A stretch of DNA of 22,847 nt from a virus: positions 1 through 22,847 of IMG/VR virus record IMGVR_UViG_3300025890_000173; one strand, given 5' to 3'. Numbering within the stretch: the stretch's first letter is position 1; each line of letters starts with the position of its first letter. This document shows positions 6,324 through 18,590 of this stretch, piece after piece. The position numbers were made by a program, and so were the translations under genes. The notes beneath the pieces are model-generated. The model saw nothing but the letters and a program-made list of their open reading frames with translations. It was not told the origin of the DNA and searched no databases.

Positions 6324-8242
6324 TATCTTCTCCCGTCTGGCCTAATTTCTACCCGGGGCGTGCCCAAACGCCATTGTGTGTCGGTCGTATCGGACTCTAC
6401 TTTCACCGCAAACGATCGCCCACGCAGTCTAATCCACGTCTGCTCGGTGAACTGTTCCACGGGCGTTGTAGCGCTTTGCGTCACCCCAGAGGTATCGGTC
6501 TGTAGGTATGCGCCTCCGGGGAAGTTTCGAGCCTGCAACGTGAAATCTACCGTTGGAGCGTCAGAAATAGAGTTTTCAAACGTCAAGTCCGGGATAAGCT
6601 TGCTTAAAAAGACAAAGTCATCCCCAGAACCAATGCTGATCTGACTGCTTTCTATGTAGCTAGTAATTGCACTGGGCGGATTGGTGCTGCCGTCGTTCTG
6701 CCCGCTTTCGTGGTTATACAAGTACCCGTCCGTAGAGGCCGCGATAGGCGCGTTAAACAACCCGCGGTCATGCCACGCGGTGCGCGTCAACGCGCCTATA
6801 GCCCACGTATTCTCTACGTAATTGTAAATAACGTAGCGATCGTTTTCGTTAGAACCGGCAGAAGGGTAGAACCACCAGACTTCCGAGAAAGTAGAGTTTA
6901 GCGCACAAACAGTAAGCTCTATTTGACCGACGTTTATATCGTCAAAAATATAGGCTCGTACTGGGCACGGAAGTTTCTGAGTTTGACCGGTATAGACGTA
7001 GAAGTCCCCGATGCCCATCCAAAACACTTTGTCGTCCACGGCCGTAACCGCGGAAGGACCGGCAATAGTAATGTTTTCCGCCACCTGAGCCAAACCAAAC
7101 GTAAACGGCGGACCTAAAAACTGCATAGAGTGCAGGGATATGTCTGTAAATACCAAGATTTGGTTCCGCGTTTCTACCGCGACTATAATTTCGGATCCAG
7201 ACCCTACCCGCAAATCTCCAGCCGTATTAGTTACCTCCGCATCCCACTCCGTCAAGGATTCTTGCGACGAGAAGCGTATTAACAATGGATCTTGTACGCC
7301 CACGTTGTTTTGAGCATCACACCCAAAAGCAATGATGTGGCGATCCGTGTCGCTGACAAGCACTTGTTTGGCAATAGTAGGAGTGCCCGGATCGGCTCCC
7401 GGCAAGTCCGCTAAAGCAACCGCCCTATCTACGCCGTAATCGCTGGCGCTGGTGTCCCAGTAGTAAATACCGCCGTCACGAGCGTTAAACAAAAGGTCTT
7501 CACCAAAATTGTCTATGCCCCACAAACGTACGTTGTTTACGGTGCTCAGTGTAGACGAAGAACCCCACGTGCCACGGCCCCAAGTGCTGGACCCCCAGCC
7601 GGTGCCTGACACCACTACGCCAAGGCCGGAGTTTATTTGATAAACGCCTACTACCGCTGCACCTCCATTACCGGTATCTGACCCGTCGGCCGTGACCGGC
7701 GTAGGGTTAAGCACCCCGTCGTCTGTAATGCTTGCGATTGTCGATACAGTGCGCGCTTGAACAGTGTAGTTGTTCTCGTCCACGACGGTAATTTGATATT
7801 CTTGGTTCAGGACATCGGCGGTGATTTGACCGCCAAGCGACACCGCGCCGATAAACGTAACAAAATCCCCGGTAACCGCCCCATGGCCGGTGTCCGCAAC
7901 GTCAATAGTAGATGATCCGTTGGTCGCGCCAAACGTGACGTCGCCCGCGGCAGTGGTAGCACGGATAGGGGTAATGTCGTAGTAGAACCCGCCTTCGTTA
8001 ATATAGAACTTAAAACGAGTGCCCACGGCCATGAGCAACGAGCCTTGCAGGGTTACGTAGGAGTGTAGGGCGCGACAGGGTGCAAGAAAACTGTAGTCAG
8101 ACTGTCTGGTCCAACCGCCTATTTTCTCGGGGAATCCAAATCGGAACCGGATCTTGTCGGAGTCAGACCAACCGCCTTCGTTAGAATAGCTGGTGTTTTC
8201 TTTGTTAACACCGGGTCTGAATTGTAATTTCGCTAAGGGCAT
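6323..8242 (-). CDS. Tail nozzle/hub protein, beta-propeller type (P22 gp10/SU10 nozzle-like)
   Basis: A 639-residue beta-rich protein. The N-terminus (FRPGVNKENTSYSNEGGW, then KIRFRFGFPEKIGGW) matches the opening I know from P22 gp10-type packaged-DNA-stabilisation or tail-hub proteins, which close the connector and form the nozzle of a short tail. Later blades carry Trp/Tyr-rich strands such as VWWFYPSAGS and YNYVENTWAIG. An inserted domain at about residues 95-205 is Thr/Ala/Gly-rich. At 216-226 there is a Trp repeat with period 5 (WGSSTWGRGTWG) that recurs in the 290-residue repeat protein of this window. A GAGG site stands 7 bases before the ATG, and the gene follows the lysozyme stop after 9 bases. 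The class is well supported; the exact family name is from memory. Confidence 0.8.
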   Translation of the reverse strand: MPLAKLQFRPGVNKENTSYSNEGGWSDSDKIRFRFGFPEKIGGWTRQSDYSFLAPCRALHSYVTLQGSLLMAVGTRFKFYINEGGFYYDITPIRATTAAGDVTFGATNGSSTIDVADTGHGAVTGDFVTFIGAVSLGGQITADVLNQEYQITVVDENNYTVQARTVSTIASITDDGVLNPTPVTADGSDTGNGGAAVVGVYQINSGLGVVVSGTGWGSSTWGRGTWGSSSTLSTVNNVRLWGIDNFGEDLLFNARDGGIYYWDTSASDYGVDRAVALADLPGADPGTPTIAKQVLVSDTDRHIIAFGCDAQNNVGVQDPLLIRFSSQESLTEWDAEVTNTAGDLRVGSGSEIIVAVETRNQILVFTDISLHSMQFLGPPFTFGLAQVAENITIAGPSAVTAVDDKVFWMGIGDFYVYTGQTQKLPCPVRAYIFDDINVGQIELTVCALNSTFSEVWWFYPSAGSNENDRYVIYNYVENTWAIGALTRTAWHDRGLFNAPIAASTDGYLYNHESGQNDGSTNPPSAITSYIESSQISIGSGDDFVFLSKLIPDLTFENSISDAPTVDFTLQARNFPGGAYLQTDTSGVTQSATTPVEQFTEQTWIRLRGRSFAVKVESDTTDTQWRLGTPRVEIRPDGRR

Positions 8243-8722: not shown

Positions 8723-8962
8723 TTATTCAGCGCTTTTGGTTACGCCGTCTTCGGCGTTTTCCTCTTCTACTATTTCGTCAATGCTGTCGCATACATCGGG
8801 GACAATCACACCCGTAGTAAGGCTCAACGCACTGCGGCCTACCGCTCGGACACCTTTGTACATTCCAGAGCAATAAACTTCTTTGTTTTCAATAACCTGC
8901 TCCACTGTAGTGCAGGACGCCATTAGTAAAGCAATGCTAAATATCAACGCCAGTCTTACCAT
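8723..8962 (-). CDS. Small lipoprotein of the lysis module (79 aa)
   Basis: The first 16 residues are a classic lipoprotein signal (basic Arg3, hydrophobic core, then MAS before Cys17), so the mature protein of about 63 residues should be lipid-anchored, probably in the outer membrane. The mature part contains Cys31 and Cys58 and an acidic tail from about 61. The start has a GAGGA site 9 bases upstream, and the gene overlaps the end of the lipase gene by 26 bases. Its place between lipase and lysozyme suggests a role in lysis. It could act as an outer-membrane spanin subunit, but it lacks an obvious Pro-rich or coiled-coil segment and no clear inner-membrane partner overlaps it. An envelope-modifying or superinfection-related role is also possible. 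Confidence 0.75.
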   Translation of the reverse strand: MVRLALIFSIALLMASCTTVEQVIENKEVYCSGMYKGVRAVGRSALSLTTGVIVPDVCDSIDEIVEEENAEDGVTKSAE

Positions 8963-9638
8963 TTTTCTGGTCCTCTAAGAACTTATCTAGTCGGGCTTTG
9001 TAACCTTCCATAAAATGGTCGGATATACGGTCTTTAATGCCTCTGTCTTTCTTTCGAAGGTATTTAGATGGGTTGATATAATCCACGCCACCGTTTGAGA
9101 AATATAACATATCTTGAGATTTACTGGGGCCATAGCATAAACGTGGCACCCGAGGGACAGAGTCGCTACCGTTAACCACTGAAATCTGATTGTCCAGAGT
9201 CATAGGCTTTTTAAAACCTTTGAAGAACGTATTCGGCTTGCCAAAAGTAATCAGACTAAGGTTGTCGTGCTTACCGTTTAGCTTAGCTGCGGACAGTTCG
9301 GCCAAAGCACCGCCAAGGCTGTGACCACAAATCAGCGTTCGCTTGTTGTAATCAATATATGGCTCGATGTCATCCCACACTGACGCGTGGGCCGCGACAA
9401 ACCCTGCGTGACACAATCGCCCGGCGTACGGGACAGGAACCGGGAACAAGTTAAACGCCCAATCTCCCACCTGCTGCGTGCCACGGAACACGATAATGTC
9501 GATGGTTTTGCGCTGTACAATGAAGGCTGTAGTAGAGGTAAGACCGGACTCAATCTTAGTCGCGTCACGATTAGTCTCGTTGTACGCTTTCATTGACCAA
9601 CTACAGGCCATGTTGAGAAGAACCGGATCTAATTTCAT
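8937..9638 (-). CDS. Class 3 lipase (alpha/beta hydrolase)
   Basis: A 233-residue protein with the full lipase class 3 signature. The nucleophile elbow GHSLGG places Ser107. VNGSDSVPRVP gives Asp159 in the family's usual D-x-VPR context, and SDHF gives His208, completing the Ser-Asp-His triad. An FRGT motif at 51-54 is the usual oxyanion-side strand. It should hydrolyse acylglycerol or phospholipid esters. There is no signal peptide, so it is cytoplasmic or released on lysis. I chose the ATG at 9638, two bases after the upstream stop; a TTG at 9668 would add ten residues but has no ribosome site. The neighbours (lipoprotein, lysozyme) suggest action on host membranes at lysis. Lipases of this type occur in other marine phages. 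Confidence 0.88.
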   Translation of the reverse strand: MKLDPVLLNMACSWSMKAYNETNRDATKIESGLTSTTAFIVQRKTIDIIVFRGTQQVGDWAFNLFPVPVPYAGRLCHAGFVAAHASVWDDIEPYIDYNKRTLICGHSLGGALAELSAAKLNGKHDNLSLITFGKPNTFFKGFKKPMTLDNQISVVNGSDSVPRVPRLCYGPSKSQDMLYFSNGGVDYINPSKYLRKKDRGIKDRISDHFMEGYKARLDKFLEDQKNGKTGVDI

Positions 9639-9640
9639 TT

Positions 9641-10108
9641 TTACCCGGCTACTAAATTTATCATCCAAAAAATTATGCCCATAGTAAAAGCTGCCATCAA
9701 CATTATTAACCCGCCATCTATCAGTAAACGTCTGTTTGTAGCCCGTGCTTCAGCAGCAGCAAGACGTTTTTGACGTATAGTACGCCGAGTTTTCATCATT
9801 TCGTTATAAAAGGCTTCGCCCGGACCGTACAGAACGATCATTTCTCTGAGTTGGGTTTCCATCTGCTGCGTTTTATGTTTCGCCATCTGTATTTCTAAGG
9901 CTTGGGCTTCTACAGACGAGCCTCGCAAGAACTTAGGGCCATACTCGTTTTCTTTCTCTATTTCTAGGATTTTTTCCTTAGAATCAAAGAACTTGCCTAT
10001 GTACTGAGCCGTGTCTTCTATCTCACGACCGGCATTTACTGCCTTGGCGACCATGTTGTAGGCGCGACTAGCGCCGGATATACAAGCAACTATTGTTACG
10101 GGGTCCAT
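9641..10108 (-). CDS. Membrane-anchored helical protein of the lysis module (155 aa)
   Basis: A 155-residue protein starting MDPVTIVACISGASRAYNM. The first 25 residues are moderately hydrophobic, the middle (about 45-125) is highly charged and helical with Gln/Glu/Lys/Arg-rich coiled-coil character, and residues 130-152 form a clear transmembrane segment preceded by Arg126-Arg127. The start ATG overlaps the previous stop (TGATG). I recognise this type as a recurrent protein beside lipase and lysozyme genes in marine phages, but no function is known to me. A holin-like, spanin-like or virion membrane role is possible. The topology, with a single C-terminal segment and a long cytoplasmic coil, does not match a textbook holin. 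Confidence 0.75.
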   Translation of the reverse strand: MDPVTIVACISGASRAYNMVAKAVNAGREIEDTAQYIGKFFDSKEKILEIEKENEYGPKFLRGSSVEAQALEIQMAKHKTQQMETQLREMIVLYGPGEAFYNEMMKTRRTIRQKRLAAAEARATNRRLLIDGGLIMLMAAFTMGIIFWMINLVAG

Positions 10109-10407: not shown

Positions 10408-11157
10408 CTAATCTTCTACGTCCACCTTATACGGGCATCCTTTAATTTTTATTAGCCTAGCGGTCGTCGCATAAGAATTTATAAATTTAGCTCGGTGTGC
10501 CTTACGACGGAAATTTTTAAGTTTTTCCGAAGATACTAAATGTGTCTGTATTAATATAGGTCTTTCGGTTATAGGCACATACGTGTATATAGGGTTTCCT
10601 GCGGATAATACTTTTTCTTGTCTTACTTTTTCTCTTTTTACAAATAAGTTTATATGAGTTGACGCTTGGAAGTTAAAATTAACCACCCCCGGCAAAATAG
10701 AAATGTTCCCTAACGTTTTAAATTGCCAAAAGGGTTCTACCGCTAAGAAATCTATATTTTCATCGCAATTTATTACCCAAGGGCTTATTAATTTTAAATG
10801 TTGGTATTCGGTTTTTTTAAAATAATCCCCGTACTCTTTTTCGCTGTGCTGTCCCATCTCGGAACACTGGTCTGAGTATTGCCAACGATATTGATCGCTA
10901 CCTTCCTCGCCTATCTCTAAAAATAAATCGCTCCACATAGGTATAGTAAATCCAACATTAAATAAACCTATAAACCCCGAGCACGCCTTTAAATTAGTAA
11001 CAGCGTCTTCAGGAGTTCTAAAATAAGGTTTTTTTAATTTTTTAAACCATTCGGGAAATATTTTTTTATTAATTACAACTGGGAAATAGTTATAAACCTC
11101 TGCTCTATCCGTATAACAGTGAATTACTACCTCTTTGTTTTTACGCCATAGCCTCAT
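10408..11157 (-). CDS. Conserved phage protein of unknown function, possibly DUF6065-like (249 aa)
   Basis: A 249-residue protein. The middle carries CSGFIGLFNVGFTIPMWSD (about 59-77), followed by an aromatic/acidic region, ISPWVINCD (about 124-132), an EPFWQF segment and SILPGVVNFNF. This order resembles the DUF6065 proteins that I remember from marine viruses and from oxygenase-containing clusters, but I could not verify the assignment. There is no signal peptide or clear membrane segment. The ATG overlaps the upstream stop (ATGA). Its genomic partner genes are an oxygenase and a halogenase, so a role in the same modification pathway is possible. Codon use is strongly AT-biased, like the halogenase. 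Confidence 0.65.
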   Translation of the reverse strand: MRLWRKNKEVVIHCYTDRAEVYNYFPVVINKKIFPEWFKKLKKPYFRTPEDAVTNLKACSGFIGLFNVGFTIPMWSDLFLEIGEEGSDQYRWQYSDQCSEMGQHSEKEYGDYFKKTEYQHLKLISPWVINCDENIDFLAVEPFWQFKTLGNISILPGVVNFNFQASTHINLFVKREKVRQEKVLSAGNPIYTYVPITERPILIQTHLVSSEKLKNFRRKAHRAKFINSYATTARLIKIKGCPYKVDVED

Positions 11158-11378
11158 TTAATTACCACTATATCGGCATCTTCAAAAAATAACACCGCTC
11201 CTTCGCAAACTATGTTCCAATCTGGCCCTTCTTGTTCACTACGAGAGGGCACTTCTATGATAACATGCTTAGCTAACCACTCTGTATCGCCTTGAAGCAC
11301 TCGCCATACGTGCTCCACAGTTCCTCTGCCGGGTTGACCCCTAGATTTATTAAATCTTATACGGTATTTCCTATTCAA
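11154..11378 (-). CDS. Small basic protein KYRIRFNKSRGQPGRG (74 aa, TTG start)
   Basis: A 74-residue protein: a basic first half (RKYRIRFNKSRGQPGRG, then VEHVWRVLQGDTEWL) and a beta-rich second half ending in FFEDADIVVIK. Short proteins with the same RIRFN-x-SRGQPGRG and HVWRV pattern occur in cyanophages as I recall, function unknown. The frame is open upstream to 11495, but that part overlaps the oxygenase gene. I therefore place the start at the TTG at 11378, one base after the oxygenase stop and with an AAAGGA site 10 bases upstream. This start gives exactly the conserved N-terminus. The stop overlaps the next ATG. Confidence 0.65.
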   Translation of the reverse strand: MNRKYRIRFNKSRGQPGRGTVEHVWRVLQGDTEWLAKHVIIEVPSRSEQEGPDWNIVCEGAVLFFEDADIVVIK

Positions 11379-11379
11379 A

Positions 11380-11982
11380 CTAATCTTTTCCTTTAAGCAT
11401 CCACGCCTCAGATTTAGTTCTTGTGGAAAGTATTTGACCCAAATCTGGTCTGTTATCAAACTTGCAGGCTTTAAACTCCCCATCTTGATAGACATAATGC
11501 AGCATACATTGCAGTGTTACTTGGTCTTCCGAGTGTGGGTATCTCCCATGAGGTATTTCTCTTCCAAGATAAAAAAACGCATCTCCGGGTTTTTGGTAAA
11601 CTTCTACCATTTCTCCATCAAAATTTTCATAGCATAGGGGGTTTTTGGATTCTCCAAAATGCGCTATATTTATAGAGACCGATATTTCGCAACTTGGTCT
11701 ATCGGAATGGATCAACATTTTATCACCCGCAGTGTAAAGTCTTATATAAGAATATGTTGGGTAAAGTTTTCTACCTACTATTTCTTCTGCTTTCGGAAGG
11801 TTATACGCTAAAAGAGACTCAATAAGCGGGTCTGCGTATTTTTTAAAAGAAGAAGTATTACTAAATTCTTCTTGTTCCCATTCGTTGCTCGTTACTCTAT
11901 ATTGGCAATATCTCTGCAATAATTCTATTAAGTCTATACTTAAAAAATTTTCTTCAATGTGTATCCCGTTTTCTTTAAACAT
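11380..11982 (-). CDS. Fe(II)/2-oxoglutarate oxygenase, prolyl-hydroxylase-like (200 aa)
   Basis: A 200-residue protein with a double-stranded beta-helix oxygenase pattern. LIHSDRPSCEISVSINI supplies the H-x-D pair His92 and Asp94, and REIPHGRYP supplies the distal His145 with Arg147 close by. The strand LQCMLHYVYQDGEF at the end matches the closing strand of phage relatives. Enzymes of this fold use Fe(II), O2 and 2-oxoglutarate to hydroxylate or otherwise oxidise a substrate, here unknown. The gene follows the halogenase after 8 bases and lacks a ribosome site of its own. The 2-oxoglutarate-binding basic residue is not at the usual +10 spacing; Arg147 may serve. The fold call is strong, the substrate unknown. 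Confidence 0.78.
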   Translation of the reverse strand: MFKENGIHIEENFLSIDLIELLQRYCQYRVTSNEWEQEEFSNTSSFKKYADPLIESLLAYNLPKAEEIVGRKLYPTYSYIRLYTAGDKMLIHSDRPSCEISVSINIAHFGESKNPLCYENFDGEMVEVYQKPGDAFFYLGREIPHGRYPHSEDQVTLQCMLHYVYQDGEFKACKFDNRPDLGQILSTRTKSEAWMLKGKD

Positions 11983-11990
11983 AATCTACA

Positions 11991-13463
11991 TTAAACCTTG
12001 TGGGGGGTTTTTAGTTCTATAAAATCTTTATGTGAAACAGTGTCACTAAAAATCAATCTATTCTGGTTTTGCTGCAAAAATTTAAGAGCCTCTTTTTTAA
12101 TATCTCTATCATCTTTTGCGCGGATTTGAAGCATGTCTTTATCTAACTGATTTGTGCCAGCTAAAACACACGACCAAGACCATGCTCCAAAAGCATTGTT
12201 ACTAGAAAGGACATCTGAACCATCTATGTTATAGTTTAAAGAACTTTTCATTTCTTCAGACATTTTATTTTTGTTTAAGTTGTTAAATTGATTCCAAAAC
12301 TCCGTATCTTTTCTTCCCGATTGGTAATGTGCAACTATAAAATTCTTTATATGCTCATTAAAATCAAACATATATTTATTAAACTGTTTTGCAAAAAAAT
12401 TAGATTTATTATTAACTCCGTCAGATTGAAAGAACAAATCTAATGACGTGGTAGAACACCAAATAGATGTTGCCTCTAAAGGTTCTATAAAGCCCGAAGA
12501 AAGCCCTACTGCAAGGACATTATTTTTTAATACCTCTTTATACACTCCAGCTTTAAAATTAAACTTTTTATAATCGTTTAACTCTATATCAAAAAATTCT
12601 TGTATTTCGGATATAACATCTTTTTCAGCTACTTTTTTAGAGTCATAAACATAGCCACACCCATACCTGTTTTTTACGGGTATTTTCCAAGCCCAACCAT
12701 GTTTCATGGCTATAGCCTTAGTGGCGGGTATTACATCGTTATTGTGCGGAATAAAAAAAGGTATTGCAGAGTCTGTAGTTAATTCAGAAGCGTAGTCACA
12801 CCATTCTGTGTTGTATTTTCCACCTATAAAAATACGCTTTAACCCAGAGCAGTCAAACACAAAACAAGGATACACGGCATCGTTATGTTCCAAGTTTATT
12901 TTTTCTATATCTTGATTGTCTTTTAATTTTATGTCTGTAACGGTATCTTCTATATACTTTATGCCTCTCTTTAATGCTATTTTTTTTAAATACGCGGCCA
13001 TTTTGATAGCATTAAAATGTACGGCTGTTTCTTGTTTGGTGTCATAAATAGAAAATACTCTTTTGGTTTTATTTAAATATTGGCCTAAAGAAACTGAATC
13101 TAGACTTGAGTATTCGGCTAATAAACCTGACCGCACAGATAAAGGAAGCCCAAACTCATTCGCACTGTTAATAAAAAAAGAATGAAAATAAGAATCGTTT
13201 TTGCCGCACCAATTTTCAAAAACAATACCATTCTTTATAGTCACATCGCATTCAGCTACAAAATCTTCTATACAAATGTTTAAACTTCTTAGCACGGGCA
13301 AGAAACTTGGTGTGGTGCCTTCCCCAGCACCAAGTATTCCTATTTTTTCACTAGCTATTACAATTACTTTAGTGTCTGGGTAGTAGTGCTTAGCAAAAAG
13401 AGCGGATAACCACCCTGCGGTTCCCCCGCCAATTACGACCATAGGTTTTTGGTCTGGTTTCAT
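11991..13463 (-). CDS. Flavin-dependent tryptophan-type halogenase (490 aa)
   Basis: A 490-residue flavoenzyme of the tryptophan halogenase family, using FADH2, O2 and halide to make a hypohalous acid that is captured by an active-site Lys. Motifs seen: dinucleotide-binding VVIGGGTAGW (9-18); GAGEGTTPS (45-53), the family's G-x-GE-T-P segment; Lys77 in TIKNGIVFENW, aligned with PrnA K79; the diagnostic W-x-W-x-I-P as W257, W259, I261 and P262; and GFIEPLEAT with Glu330 aligned with PrnA E346. Length is near that of PrnA (538). A marine viral member (VirX1, cyanophage Syn10) is known to iodinate varied substrates. It is translationally coupled to the chaperone-like gene (ATGA). A reductase partner is not in the window; the host would have to supply FADH2. 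The sequence is strikingly AT-rich. Confidence 0.92.
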   Translation of the reverse strand: MKPDQKPMVVIGGGTAGWLSALFAKHYYPDTKVIVIASEKIGILGAGEGTTPSFLPVLRSLNICIEDFVAECDVTIKNGIVFENWCGKNDSYFHSFFINSANEFGLPLSVRSGLLAEYSSLDSVSLGQYLNKTKRVFSIYDTKQETAVHFNAIKMAAYLKKIALKRGIKYIEDTVTDIKLKDNQDIEKINLEHNDAVYPCFVFDCSGLKRIFIGGKYNTEWCDYASELTTDSAIPFFIPHNNDVIPATKAIAMKHGWAWKIPVKNRYGCGYVYDSKKVAEKDVISEIQEFFDIELNDYKKFNFKAGVYKEVLKNNVLAVGLSSGFIEPLEATSIWCSTTSLDLFFQSDGVNNKSNFFAKQFNKYMFDFNEHIKNFIVAHYQSGRKDTEFWNQFNNLNKNKMSEEMKSSLNYNIDGSDVLSSNNAFGAWSWSCVLAGTNQLDKDMLQIRAKDDRDIKKEALKFLQQNQNRLIFSDTVSHKDFIELKTPHKV

Positions 13464-13807
13464 TTAGGACGTACTGGCCAAACAACTTCTAACGGGAATC
13501 CGGGAAGAGCGCGTACATTTTTTAAATTTTGTATATAAGCGATCCAACCCGCTTTTTCTTCTACAGTTAGTTTTTCATCTTCTAATATGTTTTCGCAATC
13601 GCTTAAAAGGTGTTCTGAAGTCAGTACTATTATTTCCTCTTGAGACAACTCAAACCAACCCATATCGGAGAAGGCTTCGCCTAACCAAGATAAATCACTT
13701 AGTTTCTCTGTAATATTTTGCATGCCAAAAATAGGTCCCCAGTTTTCGGGTAGTTCTCCGGGCCTATTTAGATTTTCGTTGTTTGACCGTTTTCTTAATT
13801 GCCACAT
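13460..13807 (-). CDS. Probable tail-assembly chaperone (115 aa)
   Basis: A 115-residue protein. Its C-terminal part, LTVEEKAGWIAYIQNLKN then LEVVWPVRPK, matches the pattern of phage tail-assembly chaperones (L-T-x-EEK-x-x-W-x-x-Y, closing W-P-x-x-P) that help fold or attach tail fibres. The N-terminal part contains RPGELPENWGPIFGM and an acidic helix. I chose the ATG at 13807 because GGAG lies 9 bases upstream; ATG codons at 13822 and further upstream lie inside the preceding gene without a good site. The final TGA overlaps the halogenase ATG. The adhesin-like gene sits two genes upstream, as expected for a chaperone with its fibre. Assignment is by motif and context. Confidence 0.65.
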   Translation of the reverse strand: MWQLRKRSNNENLNRPGELPENWGPIFGMQNITEKLSDLSWLGEAFSDMGWFELSQEEIIVLTSEHLLSDCENILEDEKLTVEEKAGWIAYIQNLKNVRALPGFPLEVVWPVRPK

Positions 13808-14309
13808 TTTCCACTTCTCCATCAAAAGTAGTATTAACCGCTCCACCATTAACGTATCGGTATTCTTCTTGAGACAAGGCTAAATCTAAAGCTTTTTCCG
13901 AGTTAATTTGATCAAACTTTTCTGTTCCTTGATTCTTAGCTAACTCCAAATCGCTACAAAAAGGAGGGTGCCCGTTTAAGTGTTTTTTCTCGGCTTTAGA
14001 AACTCTCCACTCTCTCCAACTAGCAAAATCATCTCGCGATTTTAAATGTACGTGGCAGCCTATTTGTGCACTAAGAGAGTGAATAAGTTCAGTTACTTCT
14101 ACCGGTTGAAGAAGGTGGTATATAAAATTTCCGTTTACTGCTCGCAAACTTATCTCTATTGTACCGCTTCCGCCATTGCCTACGGTTATACTGCGGCTTC
14201 TGGAGTTTCGATTAACACTTGATTCTTGTAATATATCTAATCTCTGTCTAGCCTCTAGCTCTTGTTGGTATTCTTTTTCAGAAAAATTTGTTTTTTTAAT
14301 CTTTGCCAT
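13764..14309 (-). CDS. Conserved-type phage protein of unknown function (181 aa)
   Basis: A 181-residue protein. Residues 1-35 are a charged helix. Residues 38-60 include SRSITVGNGGSGTIEISLR. A core follows with FIYHLLQPVEVTELIHSLSA, IGCHVHLKSRDDFASWREW and WRVSKAEKKHLNGHPPF. It ends in a Lys/Arg-rich tail. I recall this core from proteins next to glycine-rich fibre genes in cyanophages and related phages, but no function. The start ATG overlaps the stop of the glycine-rich gene (TAATG), and its last 44 bases overlap the chaperone-like gene. Position suggests a fibre-associated role, such as assembly or modification. This is inference only. Confidence 0.7.
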   Translation of the reverse strand: MAKIKKTNFSEKEYQQELEARQRLDILQESSVNRNSRSRSITVGNGGSGTIEISLRAVNGNFIYHLLQPVEVTELIHSLSAQIGCHVHLKSRDDFASWREWRVSKAEKKHLNGHPPFCSDLELAKNQGTEKFDQINSEKALDLALSQEEYRYVNGGAVNTTFDGEVENVAIKKTVKQRKSK

Positions 14310-15286
14310 TATTGTGGACACCATGAAACAACTATTTGACCACCAGAAGGGACTACCACTGAATATGGTGATCCGGGGCTTACAGAAACACAGTTAACAG
14401 AAGTCGGGTTGGCCGCCGAACCAGAATTTCCCGGACTACCGGCGCTGCCAGTTGCCGCTCTTCCTCCACCCCCGCCACCACCTGCTGCGGCTGCGTTAGA
14501 CCACTTTCCACCTTGTCCTCCTCCACCTCCGGCACGACTAGAGTTTGCAGGTGAACCCGCACCACCCGGCGCGGTACCGGGATTTCCTGCACCATCGGCC
14601 CCTGCGCCGCCACCGGGATTTCCACCTGCGCCACCCGAAATAGCACCTCCTAAACCTCCAAGTTGCCCGGAGTTGGTTAATCCTGCACCGCCTCCACCAC
14701 CGCCACGCGCGGTGGAGCCACAAATGGGGTATACAACAGGACAATAGCCAACCAATCCCGCTCTACCGGCACCACCGGCATTACCGCCCGCACCACCCGA
14801 TCGGTTATTGTAGTTAGGGTCGCATGGGCATCCATAATTCATTATTGGTGCGGGGCCTCCATTATTACCTCGAGAACCGCCCGCACCGCCCGGACCGGCA
14901 TTACCACCCGCACCACCGGGAAAGACCGCTGAAGGTACGCCGGTAATAGAAGAAGAAGAACCTACGTTTCCGGAATTCCCGGGATTTCCAGTGTTTCCAG
15001 TGTTTCCAAAACCTCCCCCGCCACCATTACCGCCCGCACCACCGTTAGATAGGGGCGGACACGAGTTCGAAGAGCGAACAGGACCACCATACCCTCCGGC
15101 ACCTCCGTTTCCGTCGTTTCCAGAACCACCTTGATTCCCGGCATTTCCTTGGGCACCTTTACCAACTAAATTTACGGTGGAAAGACCACTAGGCACCGTC
15201 CAAAACTGAGAGCTATTGAACGTAACACTACCCCCTTCTATGGAAAGACCACCCATTACGCCTGATTTTCCGGTACCTATTGGCAT
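14309..15286 (-). CDS. Glycine-rich adhesin-like tail protein (325 aa)
   Basis: A 325-residue protein. Residues 1-40 are beta-rich (FNSSQFWTVPSG). Residues 42-290 are dominated by Gly with Asn, Ala, Ser and Pro, including many GGAGGN and NPGN units and tracts of five to seven Gly. The end (PYSVVVPSGGQIVVSWCPQ) is a beta-strand closure that I know from glycine-rich proteins of marine phages. Seven Cys (76, 153, 155, 182, 189, 299, 323) punctuate the Gly tracts. The composition recalls the polyglycine-II sandwich of phage S16 gp38-type adhesins, which bind host receptors at a fibre tip. A strong AAGGAG site precedes the ATG. Receptor binding is inferred from composition and from the chaperone-like neighbour. 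Confidence 0.75.
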   Translation of the reverse strand: MPIGTGKSGVMGGLSIEGGSVTFNSSQFWTVPSGLSTVNLVGKGAQGNAGNQGGSGNDGNGGAGGYGGPVRSSNSCPPLSNGGAGGNGGGGGFGNTGNTGNPGNSGNVGSSSSITGVPSAVFPGGAGGNAGPGGAGGSRGNNGGPAPIMNYGCPCDPNYNNRSGGAGGNAGGAGRAGLVGYCPVVYPICGSTARGGGGGGAGLTNSGQLGGLGGAISGGAGGNPGGGAGADGAGNPGTAPGGAGSPANSSRAGGGGGQGGKWSNAAAAGGGGGGGRAATGSAGSPGNSGSAANPTSVNCVSVSPGSPYSVVVPSGGQIVVSWCPQ

Positions 15287-15298
15287 TGTGATAACTCC

Positions 15299-15898
15299 TT
15301 ACGTGTATTCAAACCACCCGGTAACTATGTATTTAGTCGCTTCTCCATATACTGGATTGCCCCTATGGGGGTGTGTAAAATCAGCGGGCCAAATAACTAA
15401 AGTGTTCTCAACCGGTTTTATTCTGCGTTGCTGATATAAAAACTCGGTTTCCCCGTTAGCTTCATCGGGCAAAGTATTCAAATAAACCATGTATGTCAAA
15501 CATCTACGAATAACACGGGGGGAAGAGTCTTTTTCGTGATGCCATATATGATAACCTTGGCCACTAGAAATTTCTTGCATTTTAATTTCATGAGCTTTTA
15601 TATTGCAATTTTTTAAAATAGAAAATTTTGCACTATATTGATCATACGATTTTTGAAGGCTTTCCCAGAAAATATCGAAGCTATTTTGACCTTCAAAGTC
15701 TAAAATATTTTGTATTCTTACGTCATAAAACATGGCGTAATCGTCCTTACTGTGGGCGGGCGCGTTTTCTAAAGAACGTCTATCCCCCCCCGCCCCAGAG
15801 TTTTTATGGTGTTGAAAATTTTCTATTAAATGTTTGCAAAATCCTTCTGGAAATACCCCGCTGTACATTTCTATAAAATCATTAGTTTTAATGTTCAT
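15299..15898 (-). CDS. Fe(II)/2-oxoglutarate oxygenase, prolyl 4-hydroxylase-like with H-x-E triad (199 aa)
   Basis: A 199-residue protein with the phage prolyl-4-hydroxylase-like pattern: GQGYHIWHHEKD gives the iron pair His120 and Glu122; then MVYLNTLPDEANGETEF; then VIWPADFTHPHRGNPV with the distal His178 (or His176); then KYIVTGWFEY, whose Lys189 is the likely 2-oxoglutarate ligand. H-x-E replaces the usual H-x-D, a variant I recall from other marine phage members. The substrate is unknown; peptidyl proline is the classic one. It starts inside the stop of the 195-residue oxygenase (ATGA) and ends 12 bases before the glycine-rich adhesin-like gene. Confidence 0.85.
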   Translation of the reverse strand: MNIKTNDFIEMYSGVFPEGFCKHLIENFQHHKNSGAGGDRRSLENAPAHSKDDYAMFYDVRIQNILDFEGQNSFDIFWESLQKSYDQYSAKFSILKNCNIKAHEIKMQEISSGQGYHIWHHEKDSSPRVIRRCLTYMVYLNTLPDEANGETEFLYQQRRIKPVENTLVIWPADFTHPHRGNPVYGEATKYIVTGWFEYT

Positions 15899-16482
15899 TT
15901 AAACCTTGGCCCATTAATCCATGTTACTAAGCTTTGCCGACTTCCTTCCGTTACAGGAGTGACTCTATGTAAAAGCCAAGAAGGAAAAACAGCAATGAGT
16001 CCTCTTTTTCTTGCGACCGCAACAGGTTTATTACCGGTTTGTATTTCTAAGTCCCCCCCCAAATAACTATCTGGATAAGAAAGTTGCATAACTAAACTTA
16101 ATTTACGGGCAAGCCCTTTTCCAAAATCTACGTGCCAATTATATGTCCCCTGATCTTTGCTTGAATAATTTCCCAGTTGTACGGGTTCTGCAAAGCCCGT
16201 TAGATCGAATTGATAGTATTCTGAATTTAACGAAGATATTACGTCCCCTAGCCGTTCATATACCCAATTGTGTTCGGGATCATTATGCTTAAAAGAAACT
16301 TTTACTCTTCTTACTTGCAGATTTACGGAGGAACCATTTTTATTATTTCTACCAACTTCTCCGGGTAGTTCTGCGATAGCCGCATATTGTTGCATATAAT
16401 CTAGCTCTTCTTCTGAAAAAGCGTCTTCCCACGTACAAAACGGGGGCATATTAAGGCTGTAACCGGGTAAAATATATTCCAT
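15895..16482 (-). CDS. Fe(II)/2-oxoglutarate oxygenase, PKHD/PiuC-like (195 aa)
   Basis: A 195-residue protein with a complete facial triad: NWHVDFG gives His117 and Asp119, and PSWLLHRVTPV gives distal His172. Arg182 lies exactly ten residues on and is the expected 2-oxoglutarate ligand. SYLGGDLEI and GLIAVFPSW are the typical strands of PKHD-type hydroxylases. The N-terminal 40 residues resemble a substrate-side helical cap. The ATG comes two bases after the stop of the 190-residue oxygenase, with no separate ribosome site, so translation is probably coupled. Of the four oxygenases it has the most canonical motifs. Substrate unknown. Confidence 0.88.
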   Translation of the reverse strand: MEYILPGYSLNMPPFCTWEDAFSEEELDYMQQYAAIAELPGEVGRNNKNGSSVNLQVRRVKVSFKHNDPEHNWVYERLGDVISSLNSEYYQFDLTGFAEPVQLGNYSSKDQGTYNWHVDFGKGLARKLSLVMQLSYPDSYLGGDLEIQTGNKPVAVARKRGLIAVFPSWLLHRVTPVTEGSRQSLVTWINGPRFK

Positions 16483-16484
16483 TT

Positions 16485-17057
16485 TTAAATTTGTTTCACA
16501 TTAAAATGTATAAATTTAAGAGGGTCGGGGCTTCCGTGAAAAGTCATTGAATGCCCTAGCCAAGAATTAAAAATTAACATCGTCCCCCGCATAACATTGT
16601 CAAAATGAATAAAAGGAGTAGCAGGGGCTATATCGCTGCTTTGTTTTAACGGTAAGTCCGACATTAGCTTGCCAGCTCTAGGGTCACAAAAAAGGGGATA
16701 CCCGCTTTTTTCTGGTACTTCTAAGAAATAAAACCCGGACAGTAGTTTATTTGCATGTACATGTAAGACATTACTGCCGCTGTACTCCATTTTTTGTGCC
16801 CATAAGTCCGATACTTTTAACCGGACTGCGCTAGTATCATATCCTTGAGCATCTAATACCCCCTTTGCCGTTTTTTGTATTAGCCTAATTAAATCTTTTA
16901 CCCTAGGGTCTTCCGTCATATTACTGGTTTGTACAACGATATCGCCGTTATTTACACTATCGAAATAAAAGTCTTCTGCCGAGGCTTGAGACTCTTCAAC
17001 CAACTGAGGTAGCTCTATCCTATAAATTATAGTAGGAAAATACGCAAATCCCTGCAT
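16485..17057 (-). CDS. Putative 2-oxoglutarate-Fe(II) oxygenase of the 2OG-FeII_Oxy_5 type (190 aa)
   Basis: A 190-residue protein matching, by pattern, the family with H-x-H-x-N followed by L-S-G-x-Y: here LHVHANKLLSGFYFL with His99, His101 and Asn103. It later reads GTMLIFNSWLGHSM with distal His169, then LKFIHFNV with Lys181 where Arg is common. The canonical acidic iron ligand is not visible at H-x-D/E, as is usual for this family. The N-terminus, with FPTIIYRIELP, fits the family opening. It starts two bases after the stop of the 74-residue gene. Hydroxylation of an unknown substrate is inferred. Confidence 0.72.
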   Translation of the reverse strand: MQGFAYFPTIIYRIELPQLVEESQASAEDFYFDSVNNGDIVVQTSNMTEDPRVKDLIRLIQKTAKGVLDAQGYDTSAVRLKVSDLWAQKMEYSGSNVLHVHANKLLSGFYFLEVPEKSGYPLFCDPRAGKLMSDLPLKQSSDIAPATPFIHFDNVMRGTMLIFNSWLGHSMTFHGSPDPLKFIHFNVKQI

Positions 17058-17059
17058 TT

Positions 17060-17284
17060 TTAACTGTCGATATATGCTAATAACGAGTTGGCAACCTCGG
17101 TTACTTGAGTAATCGTTACGTCGGATGCTTCAGAAGCTGTTGTAAGACGGCGATTTTCATTAATAATACTTTGCGCCATACGCAAAGCATCTAGCTTAAT
17201 TTGTTTTCTGTTGTCTGGCGCACGTAAAGCTTCACGCGCTGTTTCAAACTCTATATGGGACTGCTGTTCGGTTGTTAGTGCCAT
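17060..17284 (-). CDS. Small helical protein (74 aa)
   Basis: A 74-residue, probably all-helical protein rich in Glu, Arg, Ala and Thr (FETAREALRAPDNRKQIKLD, then AQSIINENRRL). An AGGAG site stands 9 bases before the ATG. It lies between the tail fibre and the first oxygenase. Small proteins of this kind follow fibre genes in other marine phages as I remember them, function unknown. It might be a fibre-associated or chaperone-like factor, but nothing in the sequence shows this. Confidence 0.65.
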   Translation of the reverse strand: MALTTEQQSHIEFETAREALRAPDNRKQIKLDALRMAQSIINENRRLTTASEASDVTITQVTEVANSLLAYIDS

Positions 17285-17309: not shown

Positions 17310-18590
17310 TTAAGAAGTCGCTAATGCTTTCATAGGTAATGTTACATACCAAGTTGTTCCACCATCCGGTGAGAAAAAGAACCATATATCAATTGCATTT
17401 GCGGTTGTTGTACGGCTAATGGAACCACCGGGATAGTAAAAAGTTCCGCCCGCAAGAGCAACTGTTCGAGAAGCCGTTGCATCATTAGTAAGTACTAAGG
17501 TAAACGAGGTTGCTCGGTTAGCCGTGCTGTTAGGCGTAGCTAAAGTAATAGTAGCGTTGCCGTTCAAGGTCGCAGTGAACACGTTACCGTCGTCACAGTC
17601 AATAGTTACGGCTGTTCCAGTATTACCAATTGCAAGTACGCGGTCAGAGAATACGCCAGACATAAAACTTGATGTAACATTAAATTCCCCCGTGCCTTTA
17701 GGAGTTATGTTTAAACCTACGTTAGTGTCATCGCCAGAAGGGGTAATCGTGGGGTTATTGCCCGTAGCGGCATTAGCCAATGTTATTTCGTTAACCGCAG
17801 AGCCTGTAGCCGTAAAGTTAAGTATTTGGTTGGCACTTGCGTCGTTAATTCCAGTTGTTATTGCAGGAGTAGTAAGAGCAGGGCTAGTGTTAAACACCGC
17901 TACACCAGTGCCTGTTTCGTCGGTCAAAGCAGTAGCGAGATTAGCACTAGAAGGTGTGCCTAACCAATCCGCAACCCCAGCACCAAAAGAAGTAATCCCT
18001 GTACCGCCGTTAGCGACAGGGAGGGTTCCTGTAATTTGCGAAGTAAGGTCAATACTGCCAAGAGTACCGCCAAGTGTAAGGTTGCCTGAGCTAGTTACAG
18101 TACCTGTAAGGGTAATGCCGTTAACTGTGCCTGTGCCGCCTACACTTGTTACCGTACCACCGGTTTCAGTGGGGTTAGCGTTAAGTACCGCAGCGCCTGC
18201 GCCTGCACCGTCTGTGACGACCATGACTTTAGAGCCGTTGGGTACGTTAACCGTAGCGCCTGAACCCTGCTTGATCGTGATGATCTGGCTGCCAGTAGTC
18301 GCGTTCTCGATTAGCCACACTTTAGATACTGTATTCGGACCGAGTGTTACTTCGCGTGTAGCTGTTAGCGACGCCGCAGAGGTGATCTTTAAGTAAAACC
18401 CACGAGTCGCATCTGTCGTAGCGTCCGGCATGGTGAAGGTTTCATTGGCATCAGCCGCCATTTGCTTCGTGCCGTAGCTAAAACCGTCAGTAATCAACTC
18501 AAGGTTAGTGTTAGTACTGGTGCCCCAAGTGCCGTCTTCATCACCCGTGGTGATTTCTTTGAGCCGTAAGTTATTTACATAAGTAGCCAT
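17310..18590 (-). CDS. Tail fibre/appendage protein (426 aa)
   Basis: A 426-residue beta-rich, Thr/Gly/Ala-rich protein. The N-terminus (ATYVNNLRLKEITTGDEDG, then TWGTSTNTNLELI) is one I know well from marine phage tail fibres and likely attaches the fibre to the virion. The middle contains the tail-fibre signature LPVANGGTGITSFGAGVADW and then FNTSPALTTPAI. The C-terminal 70 residues form a beta domain with WFFFSPDGGTTWYVTLP. A GGAGA ribosome site precedes the ATG. It should be a trimeric receptor-binding or adaptor fibre. The enzyme island begins two genes downstream. Confidence 0.85.
   Translation of the reverse strand: MATYVNNLRLKEITTGDEDGTWGTSTNTNLELITDGFSYGTKQMAADANETFTMPDATTDATRGFYLKITSAASLTATREVTLGPNTVSKVWLIENATTGSQIITIKQGSGATVNVPNGSKVMVVTDGAGAGAAVLNANPTETGGTVTSVGGTGTVNGITLTGTVTSSGNLTLGGTLGSIDLTSQITGTLPVANGGTGITSFGAGVADWLGTPSSANLATALTDETGTGVAVFNTSPALTTPAITTGINDASANQILNFTATGSAVNEITLANAATGNNPTITPSGDDTNVGLNITPKGTGEFNVTSSFMSGVFSDRVLAIGNTGTAVTIDCDDGNVFTATLNGNATITLATPNSTANRATSFTLVLTNDATASRTVALAGGTFYYPGGSISRTTTANAIDIWFFFSPDGGTTWYVTLPMKALATS

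Follow-up and report, generated by a model that had tools for sequence, protein, structure and literature searches.

Why should an uncultivated phage keep four 2-oxoglutarate (2OG) oxygenases and a flavin-dependent halogenase beside its tail fibre gene? The question is raised by the window, a 22.8-kb virus record of IMG/VR (22,847 nucleotides in all), whose stabilization protein marks it as a podovirus with Phage DSL-LC04 and the pelagiphages HTVC023P and HTVC027P among its relatives. The operon concerned lies on the minus strand and encodes, in this order, a tail fibre protein, a 74-amino-acid (aa) protein, oxygenases A, B and C, a glycine-rich protein (G), a 186-aa protein (u), a chaperone-like protein (p), the halogenase, oxygenase D, a second 74-aa protein (o) and a phrog_7084-like protein (Table 1). 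The probable answer is that the genes form a self-contained cassette exchanged between viruses, in which A to D hydroxylate G, an adhesin, and the halogenase of this particular virus modifies G as well.

The open reading frames listed in a preliminary description of the window were all recovered at their positions on the minus strand and are tightly coupled: from A (17057) down to 11154 successive cassette genes share 4-86 bases or have gaps of about 12 bases at most between them. The 113-aa frame at 11154-11495 was over-extended, and comparison with a second contig gave a 74-aa protein at 11154-11378 with a TTG start and no overlap with the gene at 11380. This second contig (L099, 12.5 kb, IMG/VR) carries eleven genes in the same order as the window: the fibre end, a 78-aa gene, A, B, C, G, u, p, the halogenase, D and a 74-aa gene. 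Each cassette gene showed 54-65 % identity between the two and a pN/pS of 0.27-0.41, with synonymous sites near saturation; judged from these alignments, the cassette genes are under purifying selection. The next shared gene, encoding an endolysin, is 26 % identical, and the genes further downstream differ.

IMG/VR was surveyed with u as the sole bait, without use of G or the enzymes, and 80 loci were kept of 183 relatives. With other loci this gave 80 cassettes, 63 of them distinct, and 47 of these had at least five genes upstream. G adjoined u in all 47 distinct cassettes, and each had two or more oxygenase domains directly upstream (two in 7 cassettes, three in 11 and four in 29). At control positions at least two oxygenases were found in 14 of 158 loci, although these loci had been selected partly for halogenases. 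Taken with the conservation in L099, this difference argues that the arrangement did not arise by chance. B was present in all 47 cassettes, C in 45, A in 36 and D in 34, and cassettes with two oxygenases usually retained the core pair B and C. In 7 further cassettes of the 47, one protein combines B with another domain of about oxygenase size, assumed to be A; such 360-aa fusions replace separate A and B genes in L274, L275, L278, L281, L300, L305, L318 and L335. The 47 cassettes follow one fixed grammar, A-B-C-D-G-u-p-(slot)-o, and most also have a gene of 71-81 (up to 114) aa at the position of the first 74-aa gene. The oxygenases A to D form four position-specific clades (13 label changes versus 65 in shuffles), so each appears to have retained a role of its own.

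That A, B and C are 2OG-Fe(II) oxygenases follows from Pfam, where all three scored over the cut-off. In B the residues H117xD119, H172 and R182 are invariant among 51 members, and in C H120xE122, H176/H178 and K189 are conserved at 97-100 % among 65 members. The basic residue past the distal histidine that binds 2OG is R182 in B and likely K189 in C, whose profile retrieves solved prolyl-4-hydroxylases such as 5c5t. In A, H99, H101 and H169 are invariant among 46 members and form an HxH..H pattern, of which the ligand assignment is uncertain.

Oxygenase D has a different history, since PHROGs and the GenBank neighbours label genes of its type as ferrochelatase. Pfam gave no match for 11380-11982, and 2OG-FeII_Oxy_2 was matched weakly by 5 of 30 members of the family. 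The AlphaFold2 (AF2) model built from 30 relatives reached a mean pLDDT of 91.7 and has the double-stranded beta-helix fold. All 50 best matches of this model in the Protein Data Bank (PDB), as found by Foldseek, were 2OG oxygenases, with the prolyl-4-hydroxylase of Pseudomonas putida at the top (4iw3, E 4e-10), and H92xD94 and H145, an HxD..H motif, are invariant among 50 members. No ferrochelatase model was found in the Pfam matches of the 30 members or among the 50 best structure matches. The fold, the structure matches and the motif contradict the database name ferrochelatase and agree with the preliminary description, which had read 11380 as a putative 2OG oxygenase. An overlap between the profile of D and those of the other oxygenases was an artefact of profile iteration and was not used as evidence. 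A scan of IMG/VR with the single protein 11380 returned no locus, and a clade-B relative in S-SCSM1 is also named ferrochelatase in RefSeq.

On the strength of this model, the phage genes called ferrochelatase (phrog_2954) appear to be 2OG oxygenases. Genes of this type occur at 590 or more IMG/VR loci and in many marine phage annotations, and 2OG oxygenases beside them have been read as related to iron or heme (PMC9599517). A name that has been widely propagated and interpreted as iron/heme metabolism is thus re-identified.

Inheritance of the cassette was followed in 16 distinct viruses whose contig also encodes the stabilization protein. The distances of B, C and u intercorrelated (r 0.52-0.73, p ≤ 0.0014), whereas those between these genes and the neighbouring stabilization protein did not do so significantly (r 0.17-0.26); the partial correlations of B, C and u remained at r 0.50-0.71 (p ≤ 0.003). 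Since the cassette genes co-diverge and the neighbouring tail gene does not, the cassette moves as a unit, and a self-contained, horizontally exchanged receptor-binding cassette is the best explanation. It is very unlikely that the gene order was kept merely through recent shared descent with no functional coupling. Similarity to a single protein was indeed what brought up every cassette, and the contigs include close relatives, but the mean amino-acid distance among the 16 viruses is about 0.4 for B and C and 0.5 for u, the co-divergence is independent of the neighbouring tail gene, and the flanks differ between the window and L099.

The position of G, past the fibre gene and ahead of the chaperone gene, fits an adhesin. 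Its termini are conserved, confidently predicted beta segments (MPIGTxK...TFNxxGTxTxPxGV at the N-terminus and NCxxVxPG..GGQVxISWNPQ at the C-terminus). G is the fastest-diverging cassette gene in near pairs (in L293 and L294, u is 100 %, B 94 % and G 71 % identical), and in the pair alignments substitutions and indels are concentrated in the loops between conserved glycine islands, so that glycine-rich islands alternate with hypervariable segments, as in gp38-type adhesins. The motif GN[PAST]G was observed 541 times versus 65 in shuffles, and GNP is found in every complete copy of G. The proline content of G was higher in cassettes with D than in those without it (8.6 versus 7.1 %, p 0.004 uncorrected); otherwise the presence or absence of A or D went with mostly uninformative differences in the composition of G. 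In related podoviruses oxygenases were present in 7 of 9 with a Gly-rich gene in the region versus 6 of 15 without one, small numbers in both cases.

Hydroxylation of G by A to D is favoured by the strict linkage, the slot orthology, the co-inheritance, the enzyme families and the modest association of proline with D. G would be the distal adhesin, carried by the upstream fibre, with the 74-aa protein, u and p aiding its attachment or folding, and A to D, expressed from the same operon, would hydroxylate it during synthesis and assembly. The likeliest sites would be the proline and/or asparagine of the Gly-Asn-Pro/Ala/Ser-Gly repeats, because C and D are prolyl-4-hydroxylase-like. Hydroxylation would stabilise an extended glycine-rich scaffold on which hypervariable host-binding loops are displayed. 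Modification of virion proteins was one of two models offered in the preliminary description, and it is now strongly favoured, with two to four oxygenases tied to G and the chaperone in 47 of 47 cassettes; the modification itself we infer, as we do the adhesin function of G, its role as substrate, the residues, the benefit and the chemistry.

Several observations weigh against this reading. No sequence match of G to a known adhesin was found in PHROG, in the PDB sequences (which gave no gp38) or by tblastn in 50,697 phage records. The glycine-rich middle is predicted with low confidence (pLDDT 57 for the whole AF2 model), and Foldseek with this poor model returned nothing significant and no gp38 fold, the phage fibre leads Pam3 and Bxb1 lying below significance. 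The excess of GN[PAST]G may reflect only a glycine-rich fold, and the association of proline with D does not hold once about 30 tests, or kinship, are corrected for. A 2OG-binding residue was not identified in the alignments of A or D, and in hhalign the profile of D was linked to neither B nor C, D being joined to the other enzymes by fold and motif alone.

The linkage, moreover, is equally compatible with G, u, p and the fibre in the role of substrate. The oxygenases could act on the fibre, u or the chaperone rather than on G, in which case the linkage would reflect general tail-fibre maturation. In most cassettes a fibre-sized gene and a gene of about 77 aa also lie ahead of A to D, and in 6 of 24 related podoviruses oxygenases occur near fibre genes with no Gly-rich gene nearby. 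This alternative is nevertheless unlikely, since G adjoins u in all 47 cassettes and has the enzymes on one side and the chaperone on the other, and no other sequence in the cassette looks as much like a substrate as its repeats do.

A metabolic role, with the oxygenases and the halogenase acting as auxiliary genes on host small molecules, 2OG levels or nucleic acids, is more doubtful still. Such a role has been proposed for the 2OG genes of cyanophages (PMC3037559), and in HTVC008M the 2OG genes lie between baseplate and head-tail genes. In the cassette, by contrast, slot-specific orthologues occur in strict linkage with an adhesin and are exchanged together with it, draining 2OG needs no four non-redundant enzymes, and no biosynthetic partner was found by Pfam and PHROG among the cassette proteins scanned.

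The halogenase of the window has all of its motifs intact: GxGxxG in the form GGGxxG (G12-G17), K77, W257xW259xI261P262 and E327. All five enzymes of the preliminary description are present and intact, as judged by Pfam, by AF2 and Foldseek for 11380 and by these motifs. The tight five-enzyme pathway drawn from them did not survive the survey. In the 47 distinct cassettes G always came with two to four oxygenases, whereas the halogenase was present in 3 of 80 cassettes (the window, L099 at the same place and L265 nearby). It is an optional occupant of a slot between p and o that otherwise holds a further oxygenase, a phrog_7084-like protein or nothing, and D sits past it in the window and L099 rather than ahead of G as elsewhere. 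The phrog_7084-like protein is also found in haloarchaeal tailed viruses and a cyanophage (22-25 % identity).

Synthesis of a halogenated small molecule by the halogenase and the oxygenases, the second model of the preliminary description, can draw on the intact catalytic centre of the flavin halogenase. It is the least probable of the explanations considered: A to D persist in cassettes that lack the halogenase, the gene is lodged between those of the tail chaperone and of D, and no assembly-line, ligase or transporter gene was found by Pfam and PHROG among the 10 cassette proteins scanned. On the favoured reading, hydroxylation of G, the halogenase in the accessory slot would probably put chlorine or bromine on an aromatic residue of G, a Trp or a Tyr. 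Its alignments to PrnA and RebH end before their C-terminal substrate region. When a shared tryptophan was looked for as target, the sequence GGKWSNAAA was found to be common to the window and L099 and was not found in L265.

The halogenase was also considered as the organising gene and rejected in view of its rarity in the cassettes and of phage halogenase loci in general, where an oxygenase lies within 6 genes in only 24 of 80. The other 56 are in other contexts, so that phage halogenases do not make up a single functional class. In the phage halogenase tree the 2OG-gene neighbourhood is clustered and requires several changes (9 versus 27 shuffled). A scan of IMG/VR with the halogenase as single protein gave one locus, and nine aligned halogenases proved too diverse to serve as a query.

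Among known systems, HTVC023P-type pelagiphages (PMC9599517) and HTVC008M resemble the window in having several non-orthologous 2OG oxygenases and a phrog_2954-type gene in the structural region, and HTVC008M also carries a halogenase. They differ in lacking the marker u and the fixed A-B-C-D-G-u-p order, and have been described as holding metabolic or iron/heme genes. The preliminary description had treated multi-enzyme sets as exceptional, yet HTVC008M and further marine phages were known before to carry clusters of oxygenase, 'ferrochelatase' and halogenase genes (PMC9599517, PMC3037559). The fibre region of Synechococcus phage Sf-CH11 reads structural protein, two 2OG genes, halogenase, 2OG, 'ferrochelatase' and LamG protein; unlike the window, it belongs to a 196-kb cyanophage, has no Gly-rich/u/p core, and its halogenase is about 25 % identical to that of the window. 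We know of no natural substrate of VirX1 (6qgm), a phage flavin halogenase of the same family as the one described here, which forms with L099 a separate, isolated clade on a long branch.

Virus-encoded 2OG enzymes of the prolyl-4-hydroxylase type, such as that of PBCV-1 and the lysyl and prolyl hydroxylases of Mimivirus, are thought to target glycine-repeat proteins. Those viral collagen hydroxylases belong to giant or algal viruses, comprise fewer enzymes and act on collagen GXY sequences, and their activity has been demonstrated; the cassette has a GN[PAST]G adhesin rather than GXY, and its activity is deduced from sequence. The adhesins of T-even phages (gp38) and S16 consist of Gly-rich islands split by hypervariable segments and are encoded beside fibre and chaperone genes. 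G resembles them in this layout and in its neighbours, though not in sequence, and we know of no modifying enzymes accompanying them. The literature on phage adhesin hydroxylation was searched and no precedent was found.

Carried by many uncultivated water-dwelling phages, the cassette probably represents a new and widespread form of protein hydroxylation by virus-encoded enzymes. Tentatively, such phages could finish their receptor-binding adhesin with up to four different hydroxylases and optional extras (a halogenase, possibly a sulfotransferase), in which case the adhesin would be a chemically expanded, fast-evolving binding surface and would add a new layer to the biology of phage host range. 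In marine phages, 2OG oxygenases rank with the commonest 'auxiliary metabolic genes', and their role has been a question for years. Four orthologous oxygenases tied to one adhesin offer a concrete, testable substrate and suggest that many phage 2OG genes serve virion maturation rather than metabolism.

Table 1. Genes of the cassette and its surroundings in the window
Feature	Position	Strand	Basis
Tail fibre protein, upstream of cassette	17310..18590	-	PHROG tail fibre matches; 56 % identity to L099 over the C-terminal part
Conserved 74-aa protein, between fibre and oxygenases	17060..17284	-	61 % identical in L099; no Pfam match
Oxygenase A	16485..17057	-	PF13759, 2OG-FeII_Oxy_5 (Pfam E 2e-11); own clade
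Oxygenase B	15895..16482	-	PF13640, 2OG-FeII_Oxy_3 (Pfam E 3e-13); nearest solved: PKHD-type hydroxylases, PiuC
Oxygenase C	15299..15898	-	PF13640, 2OG-FeII_Oxy_3 (Pfam E 3e-14); nearest solved: prolyl-4-hydroxylases
Glycine-rich adhesin-like protein G, proposed substrate	14309..15286	-	33 % Gly, GXX runs; adjoins u in 47/47
186-aa conserved protein u, cassette marker	13764..14324	-	62 % in L099; 183 relatives in IMG/VR
Tail fibre assembly chaperone-like protein p	13460..13849	-	PF16778 Phage_tail_APC (Pfam E 2e-9); adjoins u in 44/47 cassettes
Flavin-dependent halogenase in variable slot	11991..13463	-	PF04820 Trp_halogenase (Pfam E 2e-90)
Oxygenase D	11380..11982	-	'ferrochelatase' phrog_2954 by name; prolyl-4-hydroxylase-like 2OG oxygenase by AF2 and Foldseek
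74-aa conserved protein o	11154..11378	-	65 % in L099; downstream in 28/38 cassettes
phrog_7084-like protein, 249 aa, facultative member	10408..11157	-	PHROG match; in 9/38 cassettes

The marker u had no match in Pfam, PHROG or the PDB and was not found by tblastn in the 50,697 phage records, so no isolate phage record searched carries it; among the genomes scanned it occurred only in one contig of a Verrucomicrobiales metagenome-assembled genome (L265). Beside the halogenase of that cassette lies a 341-aa protein (7089-8114) with a sub-threshold sulfotransferase match.

Other phage halogenase loci differ in their company. In Actinomycetia phage DSL-LC01 (L014, 4079-9548) the halogenase lies two genes past two collagen-repeat proteins and ahead of a glycosyltransferase, possibly another fibre-modifying set. 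On one contig (L030), three Gly-rich proteins are found close to six 2OG oxygenases and two halogenases. A second phage module, at L002 6286-12017, consists of a Cys-rich protein of about 130 aa, a radical SAM protein, a protein of about 215 aa, one or more 2OG oxygenases, a halogenase and a 2OG oxygenase, and is also present in L117, L121, L128, L141, L142, L148, L149, L157, L164, L166 and L175. Its Cys-rich protein has a tail-like N-terminus and a Cys-rich end finishing in an invariant tryptophan; the module looks like one for ribosomally synthesised and post-translationally modified peptides (RiPP), with the terminal tryptophan as a candidate halogenation site.

Elsewhere in the window, a Lipase_3 domain protein (8937-9668, E 7e-18) adjoins the lysozyme gene and has a possible role in lysis or at the envelope.

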